This document shows, in pieces, positions 1,727 through 36,212 of a stretch of 36,212 nucleotides of DNA (position 1 is the first letter of the stretch; each line of letters starts with the position of its first letter). The translations under genes were made by a program, and so were the position numbers. Under the pieces are notes generated by a model. It ran no database searches. It worked only from the letters and a program-made list of their open reading frames with translations, and was not told where the DNA came from. Where the stretch lies: NCBI GenBank assembly GCA_021790655.1, contig JAJYGR010000045.1, positions 1 through 36,212 of the forward strand, given 5' to 3'. This stretch comes from Acidobacteriota bacterium. GTDB taxonomy: Bacteria > Acidobacteriota > Terriglobia > Terriglobales > Acidobacteriaceae.

Positions 1727-2074
1727 TCAGAGTTGCTTGGAGAGCAGATCATGGTGCTCGTAGCGTAGGCACGGATGATTCCCTGGCACTGCAACCCGAA
1801 ACCAGATAAATGGGAACAGCGGGTTTGGCAACCAATACATCCACCCCAAACTCTTTTCCGGTGTGTCACCGGGTAGCAACCAATCCATCCAGACGTAGAA
1901 GAACTTGTAGGGGCAGAAGCCCGGAACATAATTTACTTTGAACGAGCAGCCTTTCAGATATCGGCGGCGGATGTAGTAGTTTCCCTCAAACGGAGTGATG
2001 CCCCAGCCGATCGGCCCCTCAGCAAGCACCGCTCCAGTAACCCGATGCGTAATCGTAATGGCTTGACGGCTCAA
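1727..2074 (-). CDS. Conserved small protein, possibly DUF427-like
   Basis: ORF with VTGAVLAEGPIGWGITPFEGNYYIRRRYL...WMYWLPNPLFPFIWFRV; overlaps stop of upstream anti-sigma gene. Family assignment is from memory of similar proteins. Confidence 0.5.
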   Translation of the reverse strand: MSRQAITITHRVTGAVLAEGPIGWGITPFEGNYYIRRRYLKGCSFKVNYVPGFCPYKFFYVWMDWLLPGDTPEKSLGWMYWLPNPLFPFIWFRVAVPGNHPCLRYEHHDLLSKQL

Positions 2075-2316
2075 CTAGCGGAACCCTCAAGAATTGCTTT
2101 GTCCAGAAAACGATGCAGGCGAGCGCTATAACCGGACGGGACCTCAAATACCCGTTCGTCTCCTGTAATGACTAGCATCTTCCGGGTGCTGTCGTAGACG
2201 GCAGAGCACCGATGGCAACCGCGCAGATGTTGCTCGATTGTGTGGCACAATTCCGGCGAAGCTTCTCCATCCACATATTCGGACAGATGAGCGATTATCG
2301 TTTTGCAGCGAACCAT
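2071..2316 (-). CDS. Zinc-finger (zf-HC2) anti-sigma factor, apparently without a transmembrane segment
   Basis: HTIEQHLRGCHRCSAVYD (H-x3-C-x2-C motif); overlaps the end of the ECF sigma gene. Confidence 0.8.
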   Translation of the reverse strand: MVRCKTIIAHLSEYVDGEASPELCHTIEQHLRGCHRCSAVYDSTRKMLVITGDERVFEVPSGYSARLHRFLDKAILEGSAS

Positions 2317-2960
2317 GGGTTCACTCCTTTCCAGCGTTCCCAGATCGAGACCTTGGGTTTGGCGAAGATCGGCGACAGTGCTTCGCGCATCATCAAGCGG
2401 GCCCGATGCAATCGGGTCTTGACCATGGGTACGCTAATGCCAAGAATTTCTGCGGCTTCTGCGATGTTCAGGTGCTCCATGTCCCGCAACACAAAGATCT
2501 CGCGGTAGATTTCGGGGAGGCTCGCCAGCGCCTCTATGATCGCAGCGCGGACCTCTTGCTGCTCCAGGATTTCATTGGGCAGATCGCGCCAGTCGGCAAA
2601 TTGCTTTGGATGGAAGTGTTTTGTCTGCCCTTCCTTTTCCTGCTCTTCATCCACGGACTGATAGAGATGCTGGTGGCGTTTCCGCTTGTACATTTTTGCT
2701 TCGTTTTCAACGACTCGCATGGCCCACTGGGCGAATTTGTCGGTCTCCGCGAGTTGTTCCAGATGCAAAAATATCTTCAGCATGGCCTGTTGTACGGCAT
2801 CTTCCGCATCATCCTGATTGCGAAGAACGGAATACGCAATCAGGAACGCACGCCGCTCATAAGGCCGGATCAGCTCATGAAAATGGCTGCGTTCTCCTGC
2901 CCTGATTCTCTGGATCAGGAATGGTTCCCTCGATTTTTCCATCAACGCCTGATCGTTCAT
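2295..2960 (-). CDS. ECF RNA polymerase sigma factor (RpoE-like)
   Basis: Regions 2 and 4 recognisable: YERRAFLIAYSVLRNQDDAEDAVQQAMLKIFLHLEQL... and LPEIYREIFVLRDMEHLNIAEAAEILGISVPMVKTRLHRARLMMREAL. ATG at 2960 preferred over the ORF-track start at 2981. Confidence 0.92.
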   Translation of the reverse strand: MNDQALMEKSREPFLIQRIRAGERSHFHELIRPYERRAFLIAYSVLRNQDDAEDAVQQAMLKIFLHLEQLAETDKFAQWAMRVVENEAKMYKRKRHQHLYQSVDEEQEKEGQTKHFHPKQFADWRDLPNEILEQQEVRAAIIEALASLPEIYREIFVLRDMEHLNIAEAAEILGISVPMVKTRLHRARLMMREALSPIFAKPKVSIWERWKGVNPWFAAKR

Positions 2961-2994
2961 TGACAATACTGTCCGCAACAACCTTAAAAATAAG

Positions 2995-3019
2995 GATTCG
3001 CGGAACGGGCAAAGGTTAC
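2995..3019 (-). promoter_or_regulatory. Putative autoregulatory ECF promoter (GTAAC-N15-GAATC) upstream of the sigma gene
   Basis: Minus strand TGTAACCTTTGCCCGTTCCGCGAATCC. Confidence 0.7.
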
Positions 3020-3056
3020 ATCATCTCGTTTCCTCTTCTGTAAAGAAAAGCGCCCT

Positions 3057-3081
3057 GTAACCTTTTTTGATTATGGAAATC
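3057..3081 (+). promoter_or_regulatory. Putative ECF promoter (GTAAC-N15-AAATC) for the redoxin operon
   Basis: Plus strand TGTAACCTTTTTTGATTATGGAAATCA; same spacing as other sites. Confidence 0.6.
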
Positions 3082-3168
3082 AACATATAGAGGGAGCTAC
3101 GTAAAGTTTATGCTGGCTGCTTGGCGGCCACTCAGCGATTGATGGTCTGGCTGGAAAGGGTGAATTGA

Positions 3169-4251
3169 ATGAAATTTCTGCGGCATACAATCCGCGTGGC
3201 AAGGCTCAGTGCTTGTTGTCTCCTTCTTCCTGTTTTGGTGAGTGTGCTGCACGCGCAAGACGGCACAAAGATTCCAGGGCTGACGGCGGGAGACCGAATT
3301 CCACCGATTTCCGCAAAGGACCAGACTGGCACCCCCCAGACATTTGACACGCTGAAAGGGAAGCACGGTCTGCTGCTGCTGTTCTCGCGCTCCGCGGATT
3401 GGTGTCCGTTCTGCAAGCAGCAGCTTATGCAATTGCAGCAGGCCAAGCAGGAGTTTGCAGCGAAAGGCATCCATGTAGCCTCCATCACCTACGATTCACC
3501 GGCGATCCTGAAGAGCTTTGCCGACCGCAAAGGCATCACCTACCCGATGCTATCGGACCCGCAGTCGCAGATCATCCGCGCCTTTGGCATCCTCAATCCC
3601 GATGGCAAAGGCTTTGCCGCAGGCATCCCGTATCCGGGCATGTACTACATCACGCCGGATGGCATCATTCAAAAGCGCTTCTTTGAAACACAATATTTCG
3701 ACCGCTTCACTCCGAACAATGCGTATGCGGAACTGTTCGGTGGAGCTACCCCTGCGGCCAAATCTGTTGTCACTGAGCAGGGGCCGCATTTGACTCTTCA
3801 GCTTGCCCAGTCCGATACCGTCGTCGGCCCAGGCAGCCGGCTTGAACTACTGGTAAAGATCCATCCAGCGCCGAAAGTGCATGTTTATGCTCCCGGGGCT
3901 GAGACTCATGGGTACAAAGTAGTGAGCCTGGTGCTTGATACGAGTCCGAATTTTCGCGCACTTCCCACAATATATCCGCCGGGAACCATTATGGTGTTCC
4001 GCGCACTCAAAGAGTCTGTCCCTGTCTACAGCAAATCTGTGGTGATCCGTCAGGACATCGTGATGACGGCCGCGAGGGACTTTATCCACTCTATCGGTCA
4101 AGGAAGACAGGTTGAAATCTCTGGCACGTTCAACTACCAGGCATGTGACGACCACCAGTGCTTCAATCCAGTGAATGAGCCGGTGAAATGGACTGTACGA
4201 GTCGAACCGCTTGATACAGTGCGCGCTCCAGAGGCGATTCGGCACAAGTAG
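3169..4251 (+). CDS. Secreted redoxin (AhpC/TSA-like, W-C-P-F-C) fused to a DsbD-N-like domain
   Basis: GLTAGDRIPPISAKDQTGTPQTF...RSADWCPFCKQQLMQLQQ; C-terminal beta-rich region with CDDHQCFNPVNEPVKWTV typical of DsbD N-terminal domains; signal peptide. Confidence 0.8.
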   Translation: MKFLRHTIRVARLSACCLLLPVLVSVLHAQDGTKIPGLTAGDRIPPISAKDQTGTPQTFDTLKGKHGLLLLFSRSADWCPFCKQQLMQLQQAKQEFAAKGIHVASITYDSPAILKSFADRKGITYPMLSDPQSQIIRAFGILNPDGKGFAAGIPYPGMYYITPDGIIQKRFFETQYFDRFTPNNAYAELFGGATPAAKSVVTEQGPHLTLQLAQSDTVVGPGSRLELLVKIHPAPKVHVYAPGAETHGYKVVSLVLDTSPNFRALPTIYPPGTIMVFRALKESVPVYSKSVVIRQDIVMTAARDFIHSIGQGRQVEISGTFNYQACDDHQCFNPVNEPVKWTVRVEPLDTVRAPEAIRHK

Positions 4252-4350
4252 AAGTGCCTGTTCTGGTGCTCTCAAGATTGCAATATGGCCACGGCCGTTG
4301 CTACCGGACGGACAAGTCTCTCAATTTTTCAACTTTCAAGGAGTTTCTAC

Positions 4351-4920
4351 ATGAAGAACACCGCAAAACTGGCACTTCCCGCGCAGATGATCGACAGCAC
4401 CGAAGGAACCGGTAAAACAATGTTGGAGACAGCAAAAGCGCAGTTGGGGTTCGTTCCCAACATGTATGCGAACATGGTCAATTCACCAGGCTTGCTGGAA
4501 ACCTACCTGCTCGGATATAACCGCTTTCGCGAGGAAAGCGGCTTTACGCCGGTAGAACAGGAGGCGGTGCTGCTGACCATCAGTCGCTTCCATGCCTGCA
4601 CGTACTGCATGGCGGCCCACAGCATGATCGCAGACAAGATGTCGAAAGTGCCCGCTGAAGTATTGCAGGCATTGCGGACAGGTGGGCCAATTGCAGATGC
4701 CAAGCTGGCCGTCTTGTCGGAGTTTACTCGTCTGATGTTGGAGCAGCGTGGCAACCCTACGACGGACCAACTGAATGCGTTCAAGGCTGCCGGTTACAGC
4801 GAGCGTCAAGTGCTGGAGATTGTCCTGGCGATTGCCGTAAAGACCCTCAGCAATTACAGCAATCACGTCTTTCACACCGAGGTGGATGCGCCATTCCAGA
4901 AATATGTATGGGAACAATAA
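4351..4920 (+). CDS. Carboxymuconolactone decarboxylase / AhpD-like protein
   Basis: TISRFHACTYCMAAHSMIA (C-x2-C...H); start at 4351 has an AAGGAG RBS. Confidence 0.87.
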   Translation: MKNTAKLALPAQMIDSTEGTGKTMLETAKAQLGFVPNMYANMVNSPGLLETYLLGYNRFREESGFTPVEQEAVLLTISRFHACTYCMAAHSMIADKMSKVPAEVLQALRTGGPIADAKLAVLSEFTRLMLEQRGNPTTDQLNAFKAAGYSERQVLEIVLAIAVKTLSNYSNHVFHTEVDAPFQKYVWEQ

Positions 4921-4962
4921 TCGTTCGTTTTGGGCAACGCCGAGCTGGCCATCAGGAACACT

Positions 4963-6075
4963 ATGACTCTGATCATCATTCTCGCTCTAGGATTTGTCCT
5001 TGCCTATGTGAACGGCGCGAATGACGTATCGAAAGGGATTGCAACGCTGGTCGGAAGCGGCGTGACGAATTACCGTCGAGCCATTTTGTGGGGTAGTTTC
5101 TGGACCGGCATAGGTGGCATCGCGGGAGCATTTCTGGCGCACGCCATGATCCAGACATTTGGCAGCGGTCTGCTCGCACCAGGCGTTCACGCAAGTGTAT
5201 CTGCTGCACTCGCTACGATTGCCGGTGCTGCACTGTGGGTGGCGCTGGCTACGATCAGAGGTCTTCCGGTTTCTACGACGCACGCCATCGTCGGTTCAAT
5301 TGCAGGAACCGCTTCCCTCGCCTACGGGTTTGGTGGCGTCAACTGGCTATCTTTGGTTGGCAAGATCGCCTTACCTCTGCTGCTCAGCCCAATCGTGTCA
5401 CTGGTTCTCACCGCGGGCCTTCTCCGCGCTTGGAAAGCATTAGCTACTGGTTCCGTGAACGACTGCGTTTGTGCGGAAATAGTTCAGCCGATGGAGGCCA
5501 TCGGTGGCGGCGAGGGCGTGATAGGTGTGACCTCTGTTGTGCCACGACTCCACCTTGCGACGTGTGAAGCGAGCGAATGCCTGTTTCCCAAGATCACCCT
5601 CAACCATCTGCATTGGCTTACAAGTGGCGCTACCAGCTTTGCTCGCGGACTGAATGATGCACCCAAGATGGTGGCGATCTTATTGAGCGCAGCATTCCTT
5701 GCAGGGAGGGTATCTGCCCTGCCACTTACCTATTTTGTAGCGATGACACTCGGCATAGTTGCCGGGAGCTGGATGGCAGGCCAGCGAATCACCGAGGTAC
5801 TCGCCTGCGAAGTGACGCAAATGGACCATCGGGAAGGATTGGTGGCGAACCTGTCTACGGCAACATTGGTAGGGGTTGGCGCTGCTTTCGGGTGGCCGAT
5901 GTCCACAACACATGTCGCATCGGGCGCAATCTTTGGAATCGCCTCTACCAAAGACGAAAAGGTGAACGGCAAGATGATACGTACCATGCTGGCTGCCTGG
6001 ATCATCACGCTACCCGGAGCGGCGCTTTTGGGAGCTATGGTACTCGTCCTGCTTCGCATCGCAGGTTTGCATTGA
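4963..6075 (+). CDS. pit: PiT-family inorganic phosphate transporter
   Basis: GFVLAYVNGANDVSKGIATLVGSG and GWPMSTTHVASGAIFGIA; multi-pass hydrophobic profile. Confidence 0.9.
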   Translation: MTLIIILALGFVLAYVNGANDVSKGIATLVGSGVTNYRRAILWGSFWTGIGGIAGAFLAHAMIQTFGSGLLAPGVHASVSAALATIAGAALWVALATIRGLPVSTTHAIVGSIAGTASLAYGFGGVNWLSLVGKIALPLLLSPIVSLVLTAGLLRAWKALATGSVNDCVCAEIVQPMEAIGGGEGVIGVTSVVPRLHLATCEASECLFPKITLNHLHWLTSGATSFARGLNDAPKMVAILLSAAFLAGRVSALPLTYFVAMTLGIVAGSWMAGQRITEVLACEVTQMDHREGLVANLSTATLVGVGAAFGWPMSTTHVASGAIFGIASTKDEKVNGKMIRTMLAAWIITLPGAALLGAMVLVLLRIAGLH

Positions 6076-6114
6076 GCAGGTTCTGTTTTTCTGAATGCTA
6101 GGGTTAACAGGCAA

Positions 6115-7524
6115 CTAGCGCCAGAGTACCGACAGACCGCGAATGATCTTACCTGACGTTCCAGAGAATGCGCTTTCAAAAGCCATCCTTGTTACCAATA
6201 ACTGCACTCCAGTCGAATACGTCGGATAGGGATGGATCGTCGCGGCCAGGTCACTCAGCTTCAGCTTATTGTGCATGGTAATAGCAATTTCCGTGATGGT
6301 CTCTCCTGCCCGCTCGCCTACGATACTTGCGCCAACGATATGCCCGCTTTTGCGTGCGATGATCTTGATCAAGCCCAGCTTGTCATCCTCATTCACAGCG
6401 CGATCCACTTTGCTTATGTCAAAGGTCATTATCTGTAAATCGTGCTTGTATTTATCCCGCGCCCTCTGTTCGGTAAGGCCGATCTGGGCAACCTCCGGGG
6501 CCGTGAAGGTGATGCGCGGCATAGCTTCGGCCATCCCCGCATTGTTACCGGGAAGCAAAGCGTTTCTTACTGCTTGAAAACCCTGCCAGCCTGCCAGATG
6601 GGAATACTGCGGTCCTCCAATCACGTCGCCTGCCGCGTAAATGTGACTGGCTGTTGTCTGGAGATGGCCATTTACCTGAATGCCACATTCCGAATAGAGT
6701 ACTTTTGCTACTTCCAATCCTAGATCGTGTACCAGCGGAGCACGGCCTGTCGCAACGAATAAAAGATCGCCTGTAGCGCTGCCAGCATTTGTTTCCACCG
6801 TGATGTTGGGGCCATCTTTGTGCACAGCTACTGCCTGCGCGGCAATGCGCTGCACGCCCTCCTGCTCAAACACTCTGCTGATAATTTCAGAGACCTCTGG
6901 CTCTTCCGACGGCAGCAAACGCTCGGCAATGACCACCACTTCAGAGCCAAGCCTGCGATAGGCTTGAGCGATCTCGCAACCAATAGGGCCGCCACCAACG
7001 ATGAGCAATCTCTGCGGCAGTCGATCATTGTCAAAGATTTTCTGGTAGGTGAAAAATGGAACCTCTGCCAGTCCAGCCAGGGCAGGAATACGTGGCTCTG
7101 CGCCGGTGTTAATCAAGATTTTCTTTGCTTGGATCCGCTGCGTTCCCACCTCCAGCGTATGTGGGTCGAGAAACCGTGTTGCACCAAGAAGAACGTCCAT
7201 GCCTTTTTTACGGAGCGCTTCCGGCATAGTGGGTTCGTAGATTTGCTGGATGGTGGCGCGCAAATAATCGCGGACCTGCGTCATGTCCGTGACAGGAGCA
7301 CTGACCTGCAATCCATAACGGGAAGCAGTGCGTGCATGATGGGCCACGGTCGCTACTTTGATGAGCGACTTGCTAGGCACGCAGCCAGTCCAGGTGCAAT
7401 CTCCCCCGATCAAACCTTTCTCCAGCAGAGCGGTCCTCGCGCCCAATTGAACAGCGAAGTCCGCGGCGATCAGACCGGCAGCGCCCGCTCCGATGATGGC
7501 AAGATCATATTCCGGCGTGTTCAT
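6115..7524 (-). CDS. Dihydrolipoamide dehydrogenase/mercuric reductase-like flavoprotein
   Basis: DLAIIGAGAAGLIAADFAVQLGARTALLEKGLIGGDCTWTGCVPSKSLIK; NAD-binding and dimerisation domains (HPYPTYSTGVQ). Lacks HMA domain and C-terminal Cys pair of true MerA. Confidence 0.85.
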   Translation of the reverse strand: MNTPEYDLAIIGAGAAGLIAADFAVQLGARTALLEKGLIGGDCTWTGCVPSKSLIKVATVAHHARTASRYGLQVSAPVTDMTQVRDYLRATIQQIYEPTMPEALRKKGMDVLLGATRFLDPHTLEVGTQRIQAKKILINTGAEPRIPALAGLAEVPFFTYQKIFDNDRLPQRLLIVGGGPIGCEIAQAYRRLGSEVVVIAERLLPSEEPEVSEIISRVFEQEGVQRIAAQAVAVHKDGPNITVETNAGSATGDLLFVATGRAPLVHDLGLEVAKVLYSECGIQVNGHLQTTASHIYAAGDVIGGPQYSHLAGWQGFQAVRNALLPGNNAGMAEAMPRITFTAPEVAQIGLTEQRARDKYKHDLQIMTFDISKVDRAVNEDDKLGLIKIIARKSGHIVGASIVGERAGETITEIAITMHNKLKLSDLAATIHPYPTYSTGVQLLVTRMAFESAFSGTSGKIIRGLSVLWR

Positions 7525-8791
7525 AGTTCTCCTCATTTGGCTGCACTGCAAGCACCGTTACCTTATGGAGAAGGATCAGCGCATAAATTCCCATGATGAC
7601 CGTGCCAAGCAGCAGGCCATCGACGTGGAACATTTTCCCCAGCTCCCCCGCCAGCAGCGAGCCGCCAATCGCACCCAAACTCAGCAGAACGGAGTAGAGG
7701 CCCATGGCAGCGCCTTTTCCCGTGCCCGTGCCAAGGGACTGCGCCAGCCATGCAAGCGCCGCGGGAGTAAAACCGCTCTCTACCATAATCAGCAGAGCAG
7801 TGACCGCTGTGATAGACCCGCGCACAGAAGGAGCCATATTGCCCGAATGGTTGATCGCGAAAAGTCCTAAGCAGACAGGCAACATGGCGAGGAGCGATAG
7901 GCGCATGGCAGAGCGAATCTTCATGTGGGGGAGAACAAAACTCCATCCACTGACGCCGATGCCGAAGACGATGGAGTAGCCAAGCAGAAGCCAGCCGACA
8001 TGCGTCGGATTCTCCGCGAAGATTCCATCCAGATATTGGGAGCCGTGCGACTTCTGTGTCAACAGAAATGGAAGCGTTGGTCCGAGCCAAAGCCCAACCA
8101 CAGCGTTCACGCACAGCCAGACCGGGGCCAGAGACCGTACAGAGGGACTTTTTAGAGCGCGCAGCAGTCCTGCGAATGCGGCCTGCGAACCATGACTCCT
8201 GCTGCCGTTCGCGCCAAAAAACAGCAGGATCGCACAGAGAAGATACGCAACGGCCACCAGGCCGAATGCGTGGAGATGAAAGCGTTGCCAGAATTCGCTC
8301 CCCATTAGTCCACCAAGCGCCAGTCCTGCCAGCAGAGAAAGCTCGAAGAAGCTCATCACACGAGCGCGCAGGCCAGGTTCATGGACAGTGGAATCCGCAA
8401 GGTAAGCCAGCAGTGGAGGAGTCACAGCGGCCACGCCAATCCCTTCCAGCGTTCTGCTCAGGAAAAATATCTCGACACGCGTGCTGAGGGCAAAGAGTTG
8501 CACAGCCAGCGCGCCGATCATGGCTCCAGTCCCCATCAACCAGCGTGGCGAGATGGCGTCGGAAGCCATGCCAAACGGAATCGAAAATAGCAGCTCCGCT
8601 GCGAAAGAGACGGCGCCCAGTGTCCCCAGCAGGCGAGCATTTATCGGGAAACCGTGCCCGCTCAGATTTGCTAGGTAGATACCGATGAGAACGCCGCTGG
8701 CGCTGCTCGCAATCCGCAGAATGGCGTGTGCGAAGATCGTGACTGCCAATCGGTCTGGGCGTTGGTGCATTCGCAGGTTTGAGTCCTTCAT
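7505..8791 (-). CDS. MFS transporter
   Basis: 12-TM-like hydrophobic ORF (FSIPFGMASDAISPRWLMGTGAMIGALAVQLFAL...); ATG at 8791 (MKDSNLRM) or 8770; 20 nt overlap with next gene. Confidence 0.83.
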   Translation of the reverse strand: MKDSNLRMHQRPDRLAVTIFAHAILRIASSASGVLIGIYLANLSGHGFPINARLLGTLGAVSFAAELLFSIPFGMASDAISPRWLMGTGAMIGALAVQLFALSTRVEIFFLSRTLEGIGVAAVTPPLLAYLADSTVHEPGLRARVMSFFELSLLAGLALGGLMGSEFWQRFHLHAFGLVAVAYLLCAILLFFGANGSRSHGSQAAFAGLLRALKSPSVRSLAPVWLCVNAVVGLWLGPTLPFLLTQKSHGSQYLDGIFAENPTHVGWLLLGYSIVFGIGVSGWSFVLPHMKIRSAMRLSLLAMLPVCLGLFAINHSGNMAPSVRGSITAVTALLIMVESGFTPAALAWLAQSLGTGTGKGAAMGLYSVLLSLGAIGGSLLAGELGKMFHVDGLLLGTVIMGIYALILLHKVTVLAVQPNEENYEHAGI

Positions 8792-8798
8792 GCCATAG

Positions 8799-8823
8799 GA
8801 TGTTTGAGCACGCGAAACGTTAC
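8799..8823 (-). promoter_or_regulatory. Putative ECF promoter variant (GTAAC-N15-ACATC) for MFS/MerA-like operon
   Basis: Minus strand GGTAACGTTTCGCGTGCTCAAACATCC. Confidence 0.5.
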
Positions 8824-8837
8824 CAAACTCGGTGCTT

Positions 8838-8862
8838 GTAACTTTATCTTGCTTTGGGAATC
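8838..8862 (+). promoter_or_regulatory. Putative ECF promoter (GTAAC-N15-GAATC) for radical SAM/methyltransferase operon
   Basis: Plus strand TGTAACTTTATCTTGCTTTGGGAATCC. Confidence 0.68.
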
Positions 8863-8911
8863 CTTGAATTGCGGGTTCTTTGGGTTGATCGTATAACCCT
8901 GGGGCCGTACA

Positions 8912-10531
8912 GTGAACACAATAGGAAGGGTGGCTTCCTTGGAAACCCCGAACGTAGAAACCTTGAACTGCAAACTCCATGCCAATGATCCATCGCAATC
9001 GCAAGTCAAGAAAGACGCCGACTACGTTTTCTACGAACTGACCCGCAGCATCTGTCCGCAGTGCAGACAAGTGATCGATGCGAAGATCCTGCTGCGCGAC
9101 AACAAGGTGTACATGGCCAAGCGGTGTCCGGAGTGCGGTCCGTTTGAGGGGCTAGTCTATGGAGACGCAGAGGCCTACACGAACTTCGGCAAATTCAATA
9201 AGCCGGGAACGATTCCGCTGGCCTATGGCACGGAGATCAAAGACGGCTGCCCATTGGATTGCGGCCTGTGTCCGGATCATCAACAGCACACCTGTCTGGG
9301 CATCATTGAGGTCAACAGCGCCTGCAATATGGATTGTCCGCTGTGCTTCGCCGATGCGCGGCCTGGTTTCAGCTTGACGATGGAAGAAGTGGAGGCGATG
9401 CTGGACGATTTTGTTCGCACCGAAGGCAGCCCGGAGGTGGTCCAGTTCTCCGGGGGCGAGCCGACCATCCATCCGCAGATCATCGATTTTGTGAAGGCTG
9501 CTCACGGTCGCGGCATTCCGTTCGTCATGGTCAATACCAACGGTAAGCGCATCGCACATGATGATCGCTTTCTCGAACAACTCAACGAGGTGCGTCCCTC
9601 TCTCTACTTCCAGTTCGATGGCTTTGAGCGCGAGACCTACCGCATTATTCGCGGAGAGCCGGACATATTGGAAGAAAAGCTGCGCGCACTCGATCGGCTC
9701 GCCTCGATTGGCCTCAACGTGACACTTGTCCCAGCGATTGAGCGCGGCGTGAACGACCATGAGGTCGGAAAGATCGTTGAATTTGCTATCAGACACCCTG
9801 CGGTCCGCGGCATCAATTTTCAGCCAGCGTTTCACGCGGGCCGCCACATGCAGCATGATCCGATGCAGCGAATCACTATCCCAGACATTCTCAGGATGAT
9901 TGAACAGCAAACATCCGGCAAGTTTGTCGTCAGCGACTTCATTCCTGTTCCTTGCTGCTTTCCTACCTGCAACTCCGTTACTTACGCCTTCATCGACGGT
10001 GAACAGGTGACTCCGCTTTCGCGCATCGTGAATGTCTATGAGTATCTCGACTACATCACCAATCGAGTGATGCCGGATTTCAGCCTGGAGATCAAGAAGG
10101 CGCTCGAAGGACTCTGGTCGTCCTCGTCGGTCTCCGGTTCGCAGAAGTCGGCGGAGCAGTTTGCCGTCTCCTGTCAGGCGTGCGGACTGCCGGAGAGCTT
10201 GACTGTCGGCGACATTGCCAACAATATGCTGATGATTATGTTGCAGGACTTCATGGATCCGTGGACCTTCAACCAGAAGAACCTGATGAAGTGCTGCAAA
10301 GAGTTTCTGCTGCCTGGCGGTAAGCAAGTACCCTTCTGCGCCTACAACACGATTGGCTACCGGGAGCAGGCCCGCGCACAACTGGAAGCCATGGAACCCG
10401 AGCGCAAGCAGGCGCGCCGCGATGGACGGCCATATGAACTGAAACCCATTGTCTTCGATCTCAAGACAGGGATACCTCGCAAGGAAACGAGTACCCTACA
10501 ACAGATCGAGCAGAAGAACGGATCACATTAA
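8912..10531 (+). CDS. Radical SAM enzyme of the Tes/MJ0619-like type (rubredoxin-like N-terminal Cys pairs, extra Cys-rich C-terminus)
   Basis: CPQC...CPEC; KDGCPLDCGLCPDHQQHTCLGIIEVNSACNMDCPLCFADA; QFSGGEPTIHP; C-terminal CQACGLPE...LMKCCKEFLLPGGKQVPFCAYNTIGYRE. GTG start at 8912 uncertain. Confidence 0.85.
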   Translation: MNTIGRVASLETPNVETLNCKLHANDPSQSQVKKDADYVFYELTRSICPQCRQVIDAKILLRDNKVYMAKRCPECGPFEGLVYGDAEAYTNFGKFNKPGTIPLAYGTEIKDGCPLDCGLCPDHQQHTCLGIIEVNSACNMDCPLCFADARPGFSLTMEEVEAMLDDFVRTEGSPEVVQFSGGEPTIHPQIIDFVKAAHGRGIPFVMVNTNGKRIAHDDRFLEQLNEVRPSLYFQFDGFERETYRIIRGEPDILEEKLRALDRLASIGLNVTLVPAIERGVNDHEVGKIVEFAIRHPAVRGINFQPAFHAGRHMQHDPMQRITIPDILRMIEQQTSGKFVVSDFIPVPCCFPTCNSVTYAFIDGEQVTPLSRIVNVYEYLDYITNRVMPDFSLEIKKALEGLWSSSSVSGSQKSAEQFAVSCQACGLPESLTVGDIANNMLMIMLQDFMDPWTFNQKNLMKCCKEFLLPGGKQVPFCAYNTIGYREQARAQLEAMEPERKQARRDGRPYELKPIVFDLKTGIPRKETSTLQQIEQKNGSH

Positions 10532-10540
10532 AGAGTGCGC

Positions 10541-11323
10541 ATGGAAGAGCAAAGCGTCAAACAGTGCTGCGCCGCTTTTTATGGAAGCGATTTTGCACGC
10601 CTCTTGCTGGGAGACAGCTTTCATCCAGGTGGCACGGAACTCACGCATCACCTGGGCGCGTTACTCGGGCTAACGACTGCTTCCAGCGTGCTCGACGTTG
10701 CCTCAGGCCGCGGCACCAGCGCGTTCCATCTCGCAGAGTCCTTCGGCTGCCACGTTACTGGCGTTGACCTGAGCAAAGAAAACGTGCGCTTTTCCGCAGA
10801 GGAAGCCCGCCGGCGGGGATTGAACCAGCAGATCAGCTTCCAATTCGGCGATGCGGAACGCCTGCCGTTTGCCAGCAACACTTTCGACGCCATAGTCTGC
10901 GAGTGCGCTTTCTGCACCTTCCCCAGCAAACAGATTGCCGCCAGCGAGTTCTATCGGGTGCTCAAACCGGGAGGATTGCTGGGTCTCAGCGACCTGACGC
11001 GAATGGAAGCAGCCCTTCCTGATCTGGAAGGACTGCTGGCCTGGATCGCCTGTATCGGGGATGCGCTGCCGGTCGAACATTACATTAAAATCTTGCGTGC
11101 AGCTGGATTGCAACTGAAGGCTGTTGAAGATCAAGGCCATGCCTTAACAGAAATGGTGCGGCAAATTCAGGGAAAATTGCTGGGAGCTGAGATCCTGTCC
11201 AAGCTGAAAAAGATTGAACTTCCCGGCGTGGACTTTGCCACGGCGAAGCAATTCGCCCAAACCGCGCTGCAGGCCACGCGCACGGAAAAGCTAGGCTATA
11301 GCGTCATTGTTTCGAGAAAGTGA
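10541..11323 (+). CDS. SAM-dependent methyltransferase, ArsM-like
   Basis: VLDVASGRGTSAFHLAESFGCHVTGVDLS; Cys-containing segments CECAFCTFPSKQIAASEFYRVLKPGG and AWIACIGDALPVEHY resemble ArsM Cys positions; N-terminal CC pair. Confidence 0.8.
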   Translation: MEEQSVKQCCAAFYGSDFARLLLGDSFHPGGTELTHHLGALLGLTTASSVLDVASGRGTSAFHLAESFGCHVTGVDLSKENVRFSAEEARRRGLNQQISFQFGDAERLPFASNTFDAIVCECAFCTFPSKQIAASEFYRVLKPGGLLGLSDLTRMEAALPDLEGLLAWIACIGDALPVEHYIKILRAAGLQLKAVEDQGHALTEMVRQIQGKLLGAEILSKLKKIELPGVDFATAKQFAQTALQATRTEKLGYSVIVSRK

Positions 11324-11350
11324 TCCTCGAATACAGGCAGACCGTTACGT

Positions 11351-12712
11351 TCAAGGCACCGGAGCAGTTCCGGCAGAAACATTCTCCCCGGTCGCAAACT
11401 CCAGATTCGCCAGCATTGCCCGGTAGTCGATGCCGGCTTGGGTAGCTTGCTCGCCCGCCCTGGATAGATGCACCTGCGCCTGCATCACATCGTAGGCGGA
11501 GATCAGATGGGCAGCGTAACGTGCCTTTGCCAGATGAAGGGCCTGTTCCGCGGCGGAACGCTCTTGGGTGAGAGCACGTACCTGCGCCTGTTTATCGGCA
11601 AGTCCGTAATACGATCGACTTACTTCAAGTTCGACCTGTTGCCTCAGCAGGTTGTTGTCGGCCTGGGCCGCATCCACCTCAGCCAGGGCTTCCACGCGCT
11701 CCGCCTTCAGGCGTCCTCCGGTATACACCGGCATCTGGACGCCAACGGCGCCCACTCCATGCTGCTGGTCAGGCTTGACGGTTGAGTCGTTGAAACGTCC
11801 GCCCCCGCCGGCGGCAAAACCGTTCACCGTGGGCCGACTCTGTGCGCGGGCCAACGCCAGGTCTTCACGTAGGGCCTGCACCGTAAGGGAAGATGCCTTC
11901 ATCTCCGGTCTTGTGCGCAATGCGGTTGCGATCTCGTTGGGCAAAGGCGGTATACCGGTCTGTACCGTAGCCGGCATCAACAGGACTGGCTCAACGGAGG
12001 TCTCTTCTGTCCCCATTGCGGTATCGAGCGCCGAATACGCAGCATGCAGCGCCTCTGTTGTATGCACCCGATTGCCGTGCGCCCTGGCCAGGTCTGCCTC
12101 GGCCTCAACCACGTCATGTTTTGAGGCAAGTTTTGCCTCATAGTAAGCGGACGTGCGCCGCACCTTCGTTTCCTCAGCCTGTTCGGTTACGTGCGCAAGC
12201 TGGTCTAGATTGGTCGCGGCAATCGTGAGCAGATAGGCCTGCGTCACAGCAAGAACAATACGCCGGTCCTCGGCCTGCTTCTGAACTACTGTAGCCTGTG
12301 CCCTCAGTTTTGCGGCGGCCAAGGCGTGATGGATGCGTCCGAAGTCGAAGATCGCCTCCGATAAATTCAGCGAGCCTGCAAAATTGCGATAGAACGGGGA
12401 CGCTGGAAAACCCGTCAGGTCGAGCGCGTTCGTCGCGCCCGAGAGGCCCGCTTTGGCAATCCCCGACACCGACAGCTGGGGATAATACGCCGCGCGTACT
12501 TCGCGTACCTTCGCCTCCGTCTCCTGCTCCCTGGCCTCGGCCTTTTGTAGAGACGGCTGGTGTTCGAGGGCCGTCGCAATCGCCTGCGGAAGCGTCAGGG
12601 TGTTTTTCGTGGGCACAACAGTCTGCGGTCCAATTCCTTGCGCAAACACGTTGAGCGCGAAGACAGAGAAGACAGAAAAGATCAGCGGTAGATAGATAGA
12701 AGAAATTCGCAT
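11351..12712 (-). CDS. TolC-family outer membrane efflux protein (RND system)
   Basis: Signal peptide then LTLPQAIATALEHQPSLQKAEAREQETEAKVREVRAAYYPQLSVSG. Confidence 0.9.
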   Translation of the reverse strand: MRISSIYLPLIFSVFSVFALNVFAQGIGPQTVVPTKNTLTLPQAIATALEHQPSLQKAEAREQETEAKVREVRAAYYPQLSVSGIAKAGLSGATNALDLTGFPASPFYRNFAGSLNLSEAIFDFGRIHHALAAAKLRAQATVVQKQAEDRRIVLAVTQAYLLTIAATNLDQLAHVTEQAEETKVRRTSAYYEAKLASKHDVVEAEADLARAHGNRVHTTEALHAAYSALDTAMGTEETSVEPVLLMPATVQTGIPPLPNEIATALRTRPEMKASSLTVQALREDLALARAQSRPTVNGFAAGGGGRFNDSTVKPDQQHGVGAVGVQMPVYTGGRLKAERVEALAEVDAAQADNNLLRQQVELEVSRSYYGLADKQAQVRALTQERSAAEQALHLAKARYAAHLISAYDVMQAQVHLSRAGEQATQAGIDYRAMLANLEFATGENVSAGTAPVP

Positions 12713-17130: not shown

Positions 17131-17877
17131 CTATGGGGTCTGCTGCCGTATCGCCTCAGCGATTTGCTGCATCGAGGAATCGTTCAGCGTAGCGACGACG
17201 TCATACACTAGGCCGCGATGGCACCAAAGAACTGAGCGAACGCCATGGCCTGAGGTTTCCACGTTAACCTGCATTTTTTCGCGCTCGTATGCTCTGGGCT
17301 CGGCTGCTACGAAGATGGAGATGGATGTATTGCTATCGTTGTGGTGATATTGCAGCAATGCCGCCTTGCGTCCCGAAATGTCACAGATACGGGCAGTTTT
17401 GAGCGCCGCTCCTGGGACTGTCGGCACGTGGACAGGAAAGTCTACGCGGCCTTGTAACCATTCCTCCGCCTGCTGTGGCGAATCTGCGGCGATTTGCTCC
17501 CGGCCTGGAAGGTATTGCAGATAGTCGGCGACGAAGGCCTGCGCCAAGCGTTCGGGCGAGGGAGTGTAGCGATCCCACAAAATGCCCGCCGTGGCACCGG
17601 CCAGCAGCACAACCGCTGCCGCAGCCGCCATCCATCGCCGCAGATCACGCCTCTTGCTGGCGTTCGGTCTCTCAACCATTCCGGAGATTCTCCGCCGTAG
17701 CGCAACAGGAGCCTGCTCGCTGTTTGCCAGCTTCTTAAGTTCAGCGCGCAAGCGTTCTTCCTCCTTTTGGAACATCTGACACTGGCCGCATTCCACAAGG
17801 TGAAGGCGCGCTTCATCGGAGAGCGTTCCGTCTTCATGGTCAAGCAACCGTTGCTTCCGGTATTCCTGGCAGTTCAT
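17131..17877 (-). CDS. Membrane-anchored zf-HC2 anti-sigma factor
   Basis: MNCQEYRKQRLLDHEDGTLSDEARLHLVECGQCQMF; TM segment WMAAAAAVVLLAGATAGILW; ATGA overlap with sigma gene. Confidence 0.8.
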   Translation of the reverse strand: MNCQEYRKQRLLDHEDGTLSDEARLHLVECGQCQMFQKEEERLRAELKKLANSEQAPVALRRRISGMVERPNASKRRDLRRWMAAAAAVVLLAGATAGILWDRYTPSPERLAQAFVADYLQYLPGREQIAADSPQQAEEWLQGRVDFPVHVPTVPGAALKTARICDISGRKAALLQYHHNDSNTSISIFVAAEPRAYEREKMQVNVETSGHGVRSVLWCHRGLVYDVVATLNDSSMQQIAEAIRQQTP

Positions 17878-18425
17878 GATTTCCTCATCTTCCTGGTCGC
17901 ATAGACGGAGAGCATCTGGCGCAAGGCGCTCCGGGCACGGGCGAGCCGCGAAGCGGCCGTGCCAATCGGACAATCCAGAATGGTTGCAATCTCGCGAAGA
18001 CGAAAGTCCTCTGCATCCGAAAGCCACACGACAATGCGTAGATGTTCCGGCAAAGATTCGAGGGCGCGACGCACATCCTCCGCCGCAACCAGGGCCGGGA
18101 GCGGATCAGCACAACTCCCGGATTCCGCCATCTCAGGATCGCCCGCTTCATCCTCCCTCCATCGCTTGCTGCGGCGCTTGCCGCTGAGGAACGTGTGGTA
18201 AAGCGTTTGAAAGAGCCAGGCGCGCCAATTGCGCACGATCGTATCTCGCCTCTCCCATGCCCGTGCGGCGGTCTCCTGGGTCAATTCCTGCGCCTCATCC
18301 GCATTCCTCGACAGGCGGAGCGCAAACCGGTAGAGGTCATTTAAGTTGTCCTGCAGAGCATCAGACAGGGATGTCCTCTCCGAAGGGCGATCGAAATTGA
18401 TCGGAATGACCTCATTTTTCAGCAT
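17874..18425 (-). CDS. ECF RNA polymerase sigma factor (second)
   Basis: LYRFALRLSRNADEAQELTQETAARAWER...LPEHLRIVVWLSDAEDFRLREIATILDCPIGTAASRLARARSALRQML. Confidence 0.9.
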   Translation of the reverse strand: MLKNEVIPINFDRPSERTSLSDALQDNLNDLYRFALRLSRNADEAQELTQETAARAWERRDTIVRNWRAWLFQTLYHTFLSGKRRSKRWREDEAGDPEMAESGSCADPLPALVAAEDVRRALESLPEHLRIVVWLSDAEDFRLREIATILDCPIGTAASRLARARSALRQMLSVYATRKMRKS

Positions 18426-18560
18426 TGGCAGTAGTAGGACGCCTGGGGCACAAATAATTATCCATAAATCGACAAAAAATCGGAGGCAAGCTAAACAGCC
18501 AATCTCAGAACGTTCATGATACGCAGCCGATCCCGCCAGACTTGGCACTGAAGAACAGAT

Positions 18561-34403: not shown

Positions 34404-34802
34404 TCAGTCCTGCACAAGGGATTGAATGATCGGACAGATGCCGCTCTTGTGCTTCAACTCACAGCGCCGGACCATCTGCTGCAAGGCGTCCCGGATACGT
34501 GCAAGGGCCGCAATCTTATCTTCCACGAGATGCAGTTTATGCAGCGCCAGGTCGTGGGCCAGGCTGCATGTCTGTGGCCCGTCTAGCTTGAGCAGTCCTG
34601 CAACGTCCTCGAGGCTGAAGCCCAATGTCTGCGCTTTCTTGATAAAGCGGATGCGCTGCACATCTGTCTGGCCATACTCCCGATAACCCGACGAAGGCCG
34701 TTCCGGTTCGGTTAACAGCCCGTAACGTTGATAGAACCGTATCGTCTCTACGCCTACCCCGGCAGCTTCCGCCAATCTTCCAATAGTCAGTCTGTATTTC
34801 AT
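34404..34802 (-). CDS. merR: Mercury-responsive regulator MerR
   Basis: LTIGRLAEAAGVGVETIRFYQRYGLL; three Cys in MerR-like context (TCSLAHDLALHKL; RRCELKHKSGICPII); divergent from merT. Confidence 0.93.
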   Translation of the reverse strand: MKYRLTIGRLAEAAGVGVETIRFYQRYGLLTEPERPSSGYREYGQTDVQRIRFIKKAQTLGFSLEDVAGLLKLDGPQTCSLAHDLALHKLHLVEDKIAALARIRDALQQMVRRCELKHKSGICPIIQSLVQD

Positions 34803-34804
34803 GC

Positions 34805-34835
34805 TTGACTCCGTACCTGTGTACGGAGATTACAG
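34805..34835 (+). promoter_or_regulatory. merT promoter/MerR operator, 19-bp spacer
   Basis: TTGACT-CCGTACCTGTGTACGGAGA-TTACAG, dyad CCGTAC..GTACGG. Confidence 0.92.
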
Positions 34836-34864
34836 TGTTTTCAGGGGGAAAGAAAAGAAGGCAC

Positions 34865-36212
<1,348 letters not shown>

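Follow-up and report, generated by a model that had tools for sequence, protein, structure and literature searches.

What do a radical SAM enzyme and a methyltransferase, encoded side by side in the metal-resistance island of a soil acidobacterium, make? We analysed the window (the whole stretch of 36,212 nucleotides of an Acidobacteriota genome) around such a pair, which looks like an uncharacterised pathway. A sequence-only reading had offered two products, a membrane remodelled in response to metal by an enzyme of the tetraether synthase (Tes) group, or an organo-metalloid compound exported by the neighbouring MFS protein. Neither is proven: ars genes are not recurrent near such pairs, mer genes are occasional, and lipid genes lie beside the pair in other lineages only.

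The gene pair and its metal-resistance island

Both genes of the pair are intact open reading frames (Table 1). The 9-nt spacing first read between them holds if the methyltransferase starts at ATG 10541 but shrinks to 3 nt if it starts at GTG 10535; the methyltransferase is likely translated together with the radical SAM gene. A scan of 84,980 species genomes returned 258 relatives, the best 80 of which we read together with a Mycolicibacterium plasmid. The resulting 81 loci span Acidobacteriota, Chloroflexota, Actinomycetota and others (at least three phyla). In 76 of these 81 loci the radical SAM gene is followed directly by a methyltransferase gene on its own strand, and in 59 of the 76 the predicted stop-to-start gap is -47 to +12 nt (start codons guessed; -4 nt commonest). 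The five exceptions were one locus at a contig edge (L117) and four with no such gene (L082, L106, L115 and L126). This survey of gene neighbourhoods establishes the linkage that had been proposed, and the objection that the two genes might lack a conserved association falls away. The pair on the Mycolicibacterium vanbaalenii plasmid shares 53% and 46% identity with the window proteins. Few Acidobacteriota have a member of the pair clade (6 of 396 genomes in the sample), and the pair was absent from all other genus members examined, whereas a homologue of about 700 aa is near-universal.

Table 1. Features of the window bearing on the gene pair
Feature	Position	Strand	Remarks
ECF-type sigma factor of the block	2295..2981	-	homologue in another pair locus matches Sigma70_r2
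AhpC/TSA redoxin protein	3169..4251	+	duplicated block
CMD/AhpD-like peroxidase-related protein	4285..4920	+	duplicated block
PiT-type phosphate transporter (PHO4)	4930..6075	+	duplicated block
MerA-like FAD disulfide oxidoreductase	6115..7551	-	CTWTGC redox motif; no C-terminal CC
Divergent MFS transporter	7505..8791	-	ORF opens at 9070; likely ATG start 8791
Radical SAM protein, Tes/TrsS architecture	8912..10531	+	539 aa; ORF, domain, motif and fold evidence
Class I SAM methyltransferase, DVU_1556-like	10535..11323	+	262 aa; NCBIfam, alignments, model
mer operon	34410..36210		merR 34874-34410 (-), merT 34796-35212 (+), merP 35294-35515 (+), merA 35518-36210 (+, cut by contig end)

The surroundings bear out the suspected metal-stress setting, a metal-resistance island with RND-type efflux genes, two heavy-metal P-type ATPases and a mer operon. 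The merRTPA genes of the window are 72–84% identical to those of another pair locus (L065), where merR follows the pair by 72 nt; that contig also carries an apparent integrase and an IstB gene. A true MerA lies within 6 kb of the pair in two more loci (L089 and L093). In the Acidobacteriota sample, true MerA and the pair occurred together in one of the six pair-positive genomes, so mercury is unsupported as a general theme. The same island holds a second sigma/anti-sigma-like gene pair at 17131–18548. The block running from the sigma factor to TolC (2069–11803) has a second copy on another contig (C231, L012) at 78% DNA identity, and a further fragment (C195, L056/L016) overlaps that copy at 95.6% identity. 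With 4% contamination in this MAG assembly, co-binned strains are possible, and the second copy may be a paralogue or come from such a strain.

The divergent MerA-like and MFS genes first read beside the pair are both real, but the 'MerA' ends GKIIRGLSVLWR and has no C-terminal vicinal cysteine pair, whereas the true MerA of L065 ends LSCCAG. Flavoproteins of this type (redox CxxxxC, no C-terminal CC) are the commonest third partner of the pair. They stand near it in Acidobacteriota, Chloroflexota, Actinomycetota and Dormiibacterota and in a Gammaproteobacteria-labelled MAG, in varying orders and orientations, and form a same-strand array of MerA-like, radical SAM and methyltransferase genes in two near-complete Acidobacteriota genomes (L195 and L196; two contigs, about 3.7 Mb in all). 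MFS proteins of the same family occur near the pair in 17 loci, and thiol-redox genes recur there (AhpC, CMD, thioredoxin-type, VKOR, DsbD/CcdA and glutaredoxin-thioredoxin reductase). The Pfam families seen most often in 120 non-redundant neighbours included no ars family, and an arsenic context for the pair was rejected on this ground. The ECF-like promoter once placed between the divergent genes did not hold up, with 107 matches to GGAAC-N16-CGTC (at most two mismatches) against 115 expected, which is chance level; no sigma-70-type promoter stands out in 8700–9000.

The radical SAM protein beside Tes and TrsS

All the motifs originally picked out in the radical SAM protein are present in its translation: the N-terminal zinc-ribbon/rubredoxin cysteines CPQC/CPEC (Cys48, 51, 72 and 75), the N-terminal auxiliary cluster CPLDCGLCPDHQQHTC (Cys113, 117, 120 and 128), the SAM core CNMDCPLC (Cys138, 142 and 145) and the C-terminal cluster cysteines 461 and 462 (KCC) and 476 (PFCAYN). 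The protein also has a further C-terminal cluster cysteine at 353, thiols at Cys348/349 and extra cysteines at 421 and 424. A domain search found Radical_SAM and the HMPTM N-terminal zinc ribbon. The motif cysteines are kept in nearly all of the 81 homologues except at Cys75, where the residue is Cys or His. The closest solved relative is the M. jannaschii tetraether synthase (3e-83; 7.5e-112 as profile), and an AlphaFold2 model (mean pLDDT 79) aligned to 7TOM with a target-normalised TM of 0.79 over 499 alignment columns, predicting the full Tes fold along the whole chain. The Tes-type layout is therefore borne out by aligned cysteines and predicted fold: domain order and the rubredoxin-type, N-terminal auxiliary, SAM and C-terminal cluster cysteines of Tes/GDGT-MAS (MJ0619, 7TOL/7TOM) all recur in the window protein.

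Placement within the Tes group itself did not survive, and the link first drawn to bacterial membrane-spanning-lipid homologues is unsupported. The window protein scored 337 bits in two stretches on the NCBIfam Tes model (NF045702, cut-off 450 bits) and 331 bits in one stretch, residues 44–480, on the TrsS model (NF045646, cut-off 490 bits), on which the Mycolicibacterium homologue also fell short (335.5 bits). No arsenic radical SAM model was among its best 25 matches (ArsL and ArsS were compared through their NCBIfam models). Trees united 41 pair-type proteins in one clade (98–100 SH-aLRT). Its nearest sister was an Lgt-linked clade and TrsS lay close by; Tes, archaeal as well as bacterial, fell outside, as did the Acidobacteriota proteins of 550 and 700 aa. 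These were quick trees with SH-aLRT support only, without bootstraps, with some long branches and a deeper order that differs slightly between the two, and the Tes side of the comparison consisted of MJ0619, its residues taken from the PDB alignment, plus two Tes-like proteins from bacteria. The pair clade thus stands beside TrsS rather than inside it.

Individual residues separate the same groups. Archaeal GDGT-MAS proteins strictly conserve Tyr459 (PMC9433317). The pair, TrsS and Lgt clades have lost this residue, and the other clades retain it, those of the 550- and 700-aa Tes-like proteins among them; its position is mostly F/I/E/V in the pair clade and Phe465 in the window protein. The position of Met439 is Q/K/T/R in the pair clade, Gln or Lys in most members. 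Cys128 and Cys348 are shared marks of the pair, TrsS and Lgt clades; part of the 550-aa clade has Cys348 too, and Cys349 is pair-specific with the exception of one TrsS row. Cys348 is invariant in the pair clade and Ser in MJ0619, and it aligns with the in-frame TGA (Sec) at the FIPPGU position of TrsS in five loci (L144, L147, L149, L150 and L151), so that the window protein has a cysteine at the reactive Sec/Cys position of TrsS. These five selenoproteins belong to one Acidobacteriota genus. The sub-threshold score, the missing Tyr459 and Met439 and a clade of its own nearer TrsS rule out Tes as an identity; judged by its sequence, the protein is related to but distinct from Tes, from which it further differs in Cys for Ser at 348, extra cysteines 128, 349 and 421 and a methyltransferase partner.

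With TrsS the window protein shares one full-length model match, Cys128, a cysteine at the Sec position and a methyltransferase partner; it differs in its sub-threshold score, separate clade, Met439 replaced by Gln/Lys, added Cys349 and Cys421 and the lack of a molybdenum-hydroxylase neighbourhood. TrsS is itself a radical SAM (seleno)protein of uncharacterised role, and the literature on TrsS, TrsM and DVU_1556 yielded a single table row, for TrsS only. The genome also encodes a separate Tes-like protein of about 700 aa (contig C114, L013), near-universal in the class. It is a distant homologue of the window protein (33%) but keeps Tyr459 and lacks the N-terminal auxiliary cluster cysteines, and its contig has no methyltransferase of the window family. 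In the Acidobacteriota sister clade (L048–L053), several members lie beside or near Lgt-like genes without such a methyltransferase, and most no longer have the C-terminal cluster cysteines 353, 461 and 476.

Cysteines of the methyltransferase

The best NCBIfam match of the methyltransferase was the DVU_1556 family (NF045667), at 135 bits against a cut-off of 155; its ArsM score, 86 bits, was far below the 263 required. DVU_1556 proteins are likewise partners of a TrsS-type radical SAM protein, and the window protein differs from them in its sub-threshold score and N-terminal CC motif. ArsM-like cysteine positions had been noted in it, and three of four are aligned and invariant. In CrArsM numbering, Cys11/12, Cys124 and Cys173 align with the SCC, C174 and C224 positions of true ArsM proteins, giving the window protein cysteines at C44, C174 and C224, but C72 (GLGCGNP) is absent from the alignment. 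All 77 homologues have Cys11, 12 and 124, and 75 of 76 have Cys173, so the As(III)-binding pair C174/C224 has a putative counterpart, by alignment, in C124/C173. The window segment LLAWIACIGDA also resembles LLWVGCVAGA of ArsM, whereas ars neighbours are lacking. Both profile and fold (confident predicted model, pLDDT 90) place AtmM, MitM, RebM and phosphoethanolamine methyltransferases nearest among solved structures, which are O-/N-methyltransferases and not ArsM; the resemblance to ArsM is therefore one of cysteine positions, not of overall similarity. A separate ArsM-family gene, in two fragments, occurs in the same genome.

Possible functions of the pair

The reading we prefer, tentatively and as a leading candidate rather than a probable answer, is a TrsS-type module of a distinct clade whose substrate, a thiophilic small molecule bound by thiolate, is methylated and modified by radical chemistry. 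The Tes-fold radical SAM enzyme and the ArsM-related methyltransferase would act in sequence on one substrate. The methyltransferase would use Cys11/12, Cys124 and Cys173 to grip the substrate atom, either a trivalent metalloid or a chalcogen/metal-thiolate, and methylate it from SAM. At the CxxxCxxC cluster of the radical SAM enzyme, a 5'-deoxyadenosyl radical would abstract hydrogen from a co-substrate, and the resulting carbon radical may couple to the atom at or near Cys348/349, beside the C-terminal [4Fe-4S] cluster and at the position of selenocysteine in TrsS. The MerA-like flavoprotein could pass electrons from NAD(P)H to disulfides or clusters, and the MFS protein may export the product in Acidobacteriota.

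A thiophilic product is favoured because the commonest threads are a thiol-rich methyltransferase, a Sec-equivalent thiol, a disulfide-reductase partner and an exporter. The module also draws on the linkage in 76 of 81 loci with short gaps in 59 of 76, the grouping of the pair clade with TrsS and the Lgt-linked clade and not with Tes, the match of TrsS Sec to Cys348, the invariant cysteines at ArsM positions, a flavoprotein found across Acidobacteriota, Chloroflexota, Actinomycetota and Dormiibacterota in several arrangements, MFS proteins in 17 loci, and a metal island with a mer operon, together with the merR gene that L065 has 72 nt away. In arsQML, ArsQ is the MFS protein and ArsL the radical SAM enzyme. 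Like the pair, arsQML (arsinothricin) and ArsM/ArsS (arsenosugar) combine a radical SAM enzyme and a SAM-methyltransferase with exporter or redox partners; they differ in using other radical SAM families, and the window pair has no arsenic context. We counted the parallel of the pair plus MFS to the arsQML set (MFS, SAM-methyltransferase and radical SAM; PMC8552651) in favour of the module. Counted against it were the absence of arsenic genes among recurrent neighbours, true MerA with the pair in one of six genomes, the missing ArsM C72, the nearest solved methyltransferases being O-/N-methyltransferases, and Chloroflexota loci that show lipid genes, not metal genes.

Those lipid genes belong to the main rival, which we regard as possible but rather unlikely: membrane-lipid remodelling, in which the radical SAM enzyme works on acyl tails in the manner of Tes, modifying or coupling them, and the methyltransferase adds a methyl group to the lipid or to its head group. 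Within metal islands this would be a membrane change induced by stress. The predicted fold is that of Tes (TM 0.79 to 7TOM; profile E 7.5e-112), and bacterial Tes homologues have been proposed for brGDGTs (PMC8941075). In 13 SAR202/Dehalococcoidia-type loci PlsY is encoded on the strand of the methyltransferase gene, 22–427 nt after it, a CDP-alcohol phosphatidyltransferase gene adjoins the pair in Ktedonobacteria and L119, and Lgt lies upstream in L115 and in the sister clade. Each of these neighbours belongs to one lineage, however, and we therefore weighed them as suggestive; the CDP-alcohol enzyme is convergent and not in an operon with the pair, and no lipid genes recur at Acidobacteriota pair loci. 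The pair clade has also replaced Tyr459 and Met439, the former kept in the 550- and 700-aa Tes-like clades, and the genome has its separate Tes-like gene. Hydrophobicity of the second-pocket segment did not discriminate and was dropped as a lipid test.

Cofactor or enzyme maturation is unlikely. Like TrsS/TrsM beside molybdenum hydroxylase genes, the pair would build or repair a sulfur- or selenium-containing cofactor or modified residue. TrsS groups with the pair and Lgt-linked clades, and at L055 it sits with genes that, from open reading frames read by eye, resemble xanthine dehydrogenase, XdhC, a MocA-like nucleotidyltransferase, a NifS-like protein, C_GCAxxG and a DVU_1556-like methyltransferase. 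Near the pair clade, however, genes of these kinds are not recurrent, and thiol-redox genes and transporters recur instead.

We consider it very improbable that the pair is a third, independent radical SAM/methyltransferase route to carbon-metalloid or carbon-metal bonds, in which the Tes-fold enzyme would attach an activated alkyl carbon (possibly a lipid tail) to an atom that is methylated and bound by thiolate. If true, such a route would bring the ArsM-type cysteines, the Sec-equivalent Cys348 and the lipid-gene neighbours under one explanation, and it could lead to lipid-type organoarsenicals or a new organometal(loid) class. Mercury-specific detoxification or alkylation, with Hg(II)-thiolates processed in mer islands, is the least credible: the window mer operon, merRTPA beside the pair in L065, true MerA in L089 and L093 and vicinal cysteine pairs in both proteins speak for it, but the MerA-like partner lacks CC, most loci (including SAR202 and Ktedonobacteria) have no mer genes near the pair, and MerA co-occurs with it in one of six genomes.

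Lipid surveys may include under 'Tes' some bacterial homologues that are not Tes. Since the pair clade lacks Tyr459, carries a Sec-equivalent cysteine and is coupled to a methyltransferase, brGDGT potential could be mis-assigned in Acidobacteriota and Chloroflexota, and the residue matrix (Tyr459, Met439, Cys128, Cys348 and Cys349) offers a simple sorting test. If its product is an organometal(loid) or a modified lipid of a new kind, the pair would count as a new biosynthetic module, one found in soil and marine bacteria alike. On a Haloarcula plasmid (L142, 5974–8084), a TrsS-like radical SAM gene overlaps a methyltransferase gene, with redoxin and DUF547 genes near. This locus may bear on the Halobacteria that have 'Tes homologues' but no GDGTs (PMC8941075).
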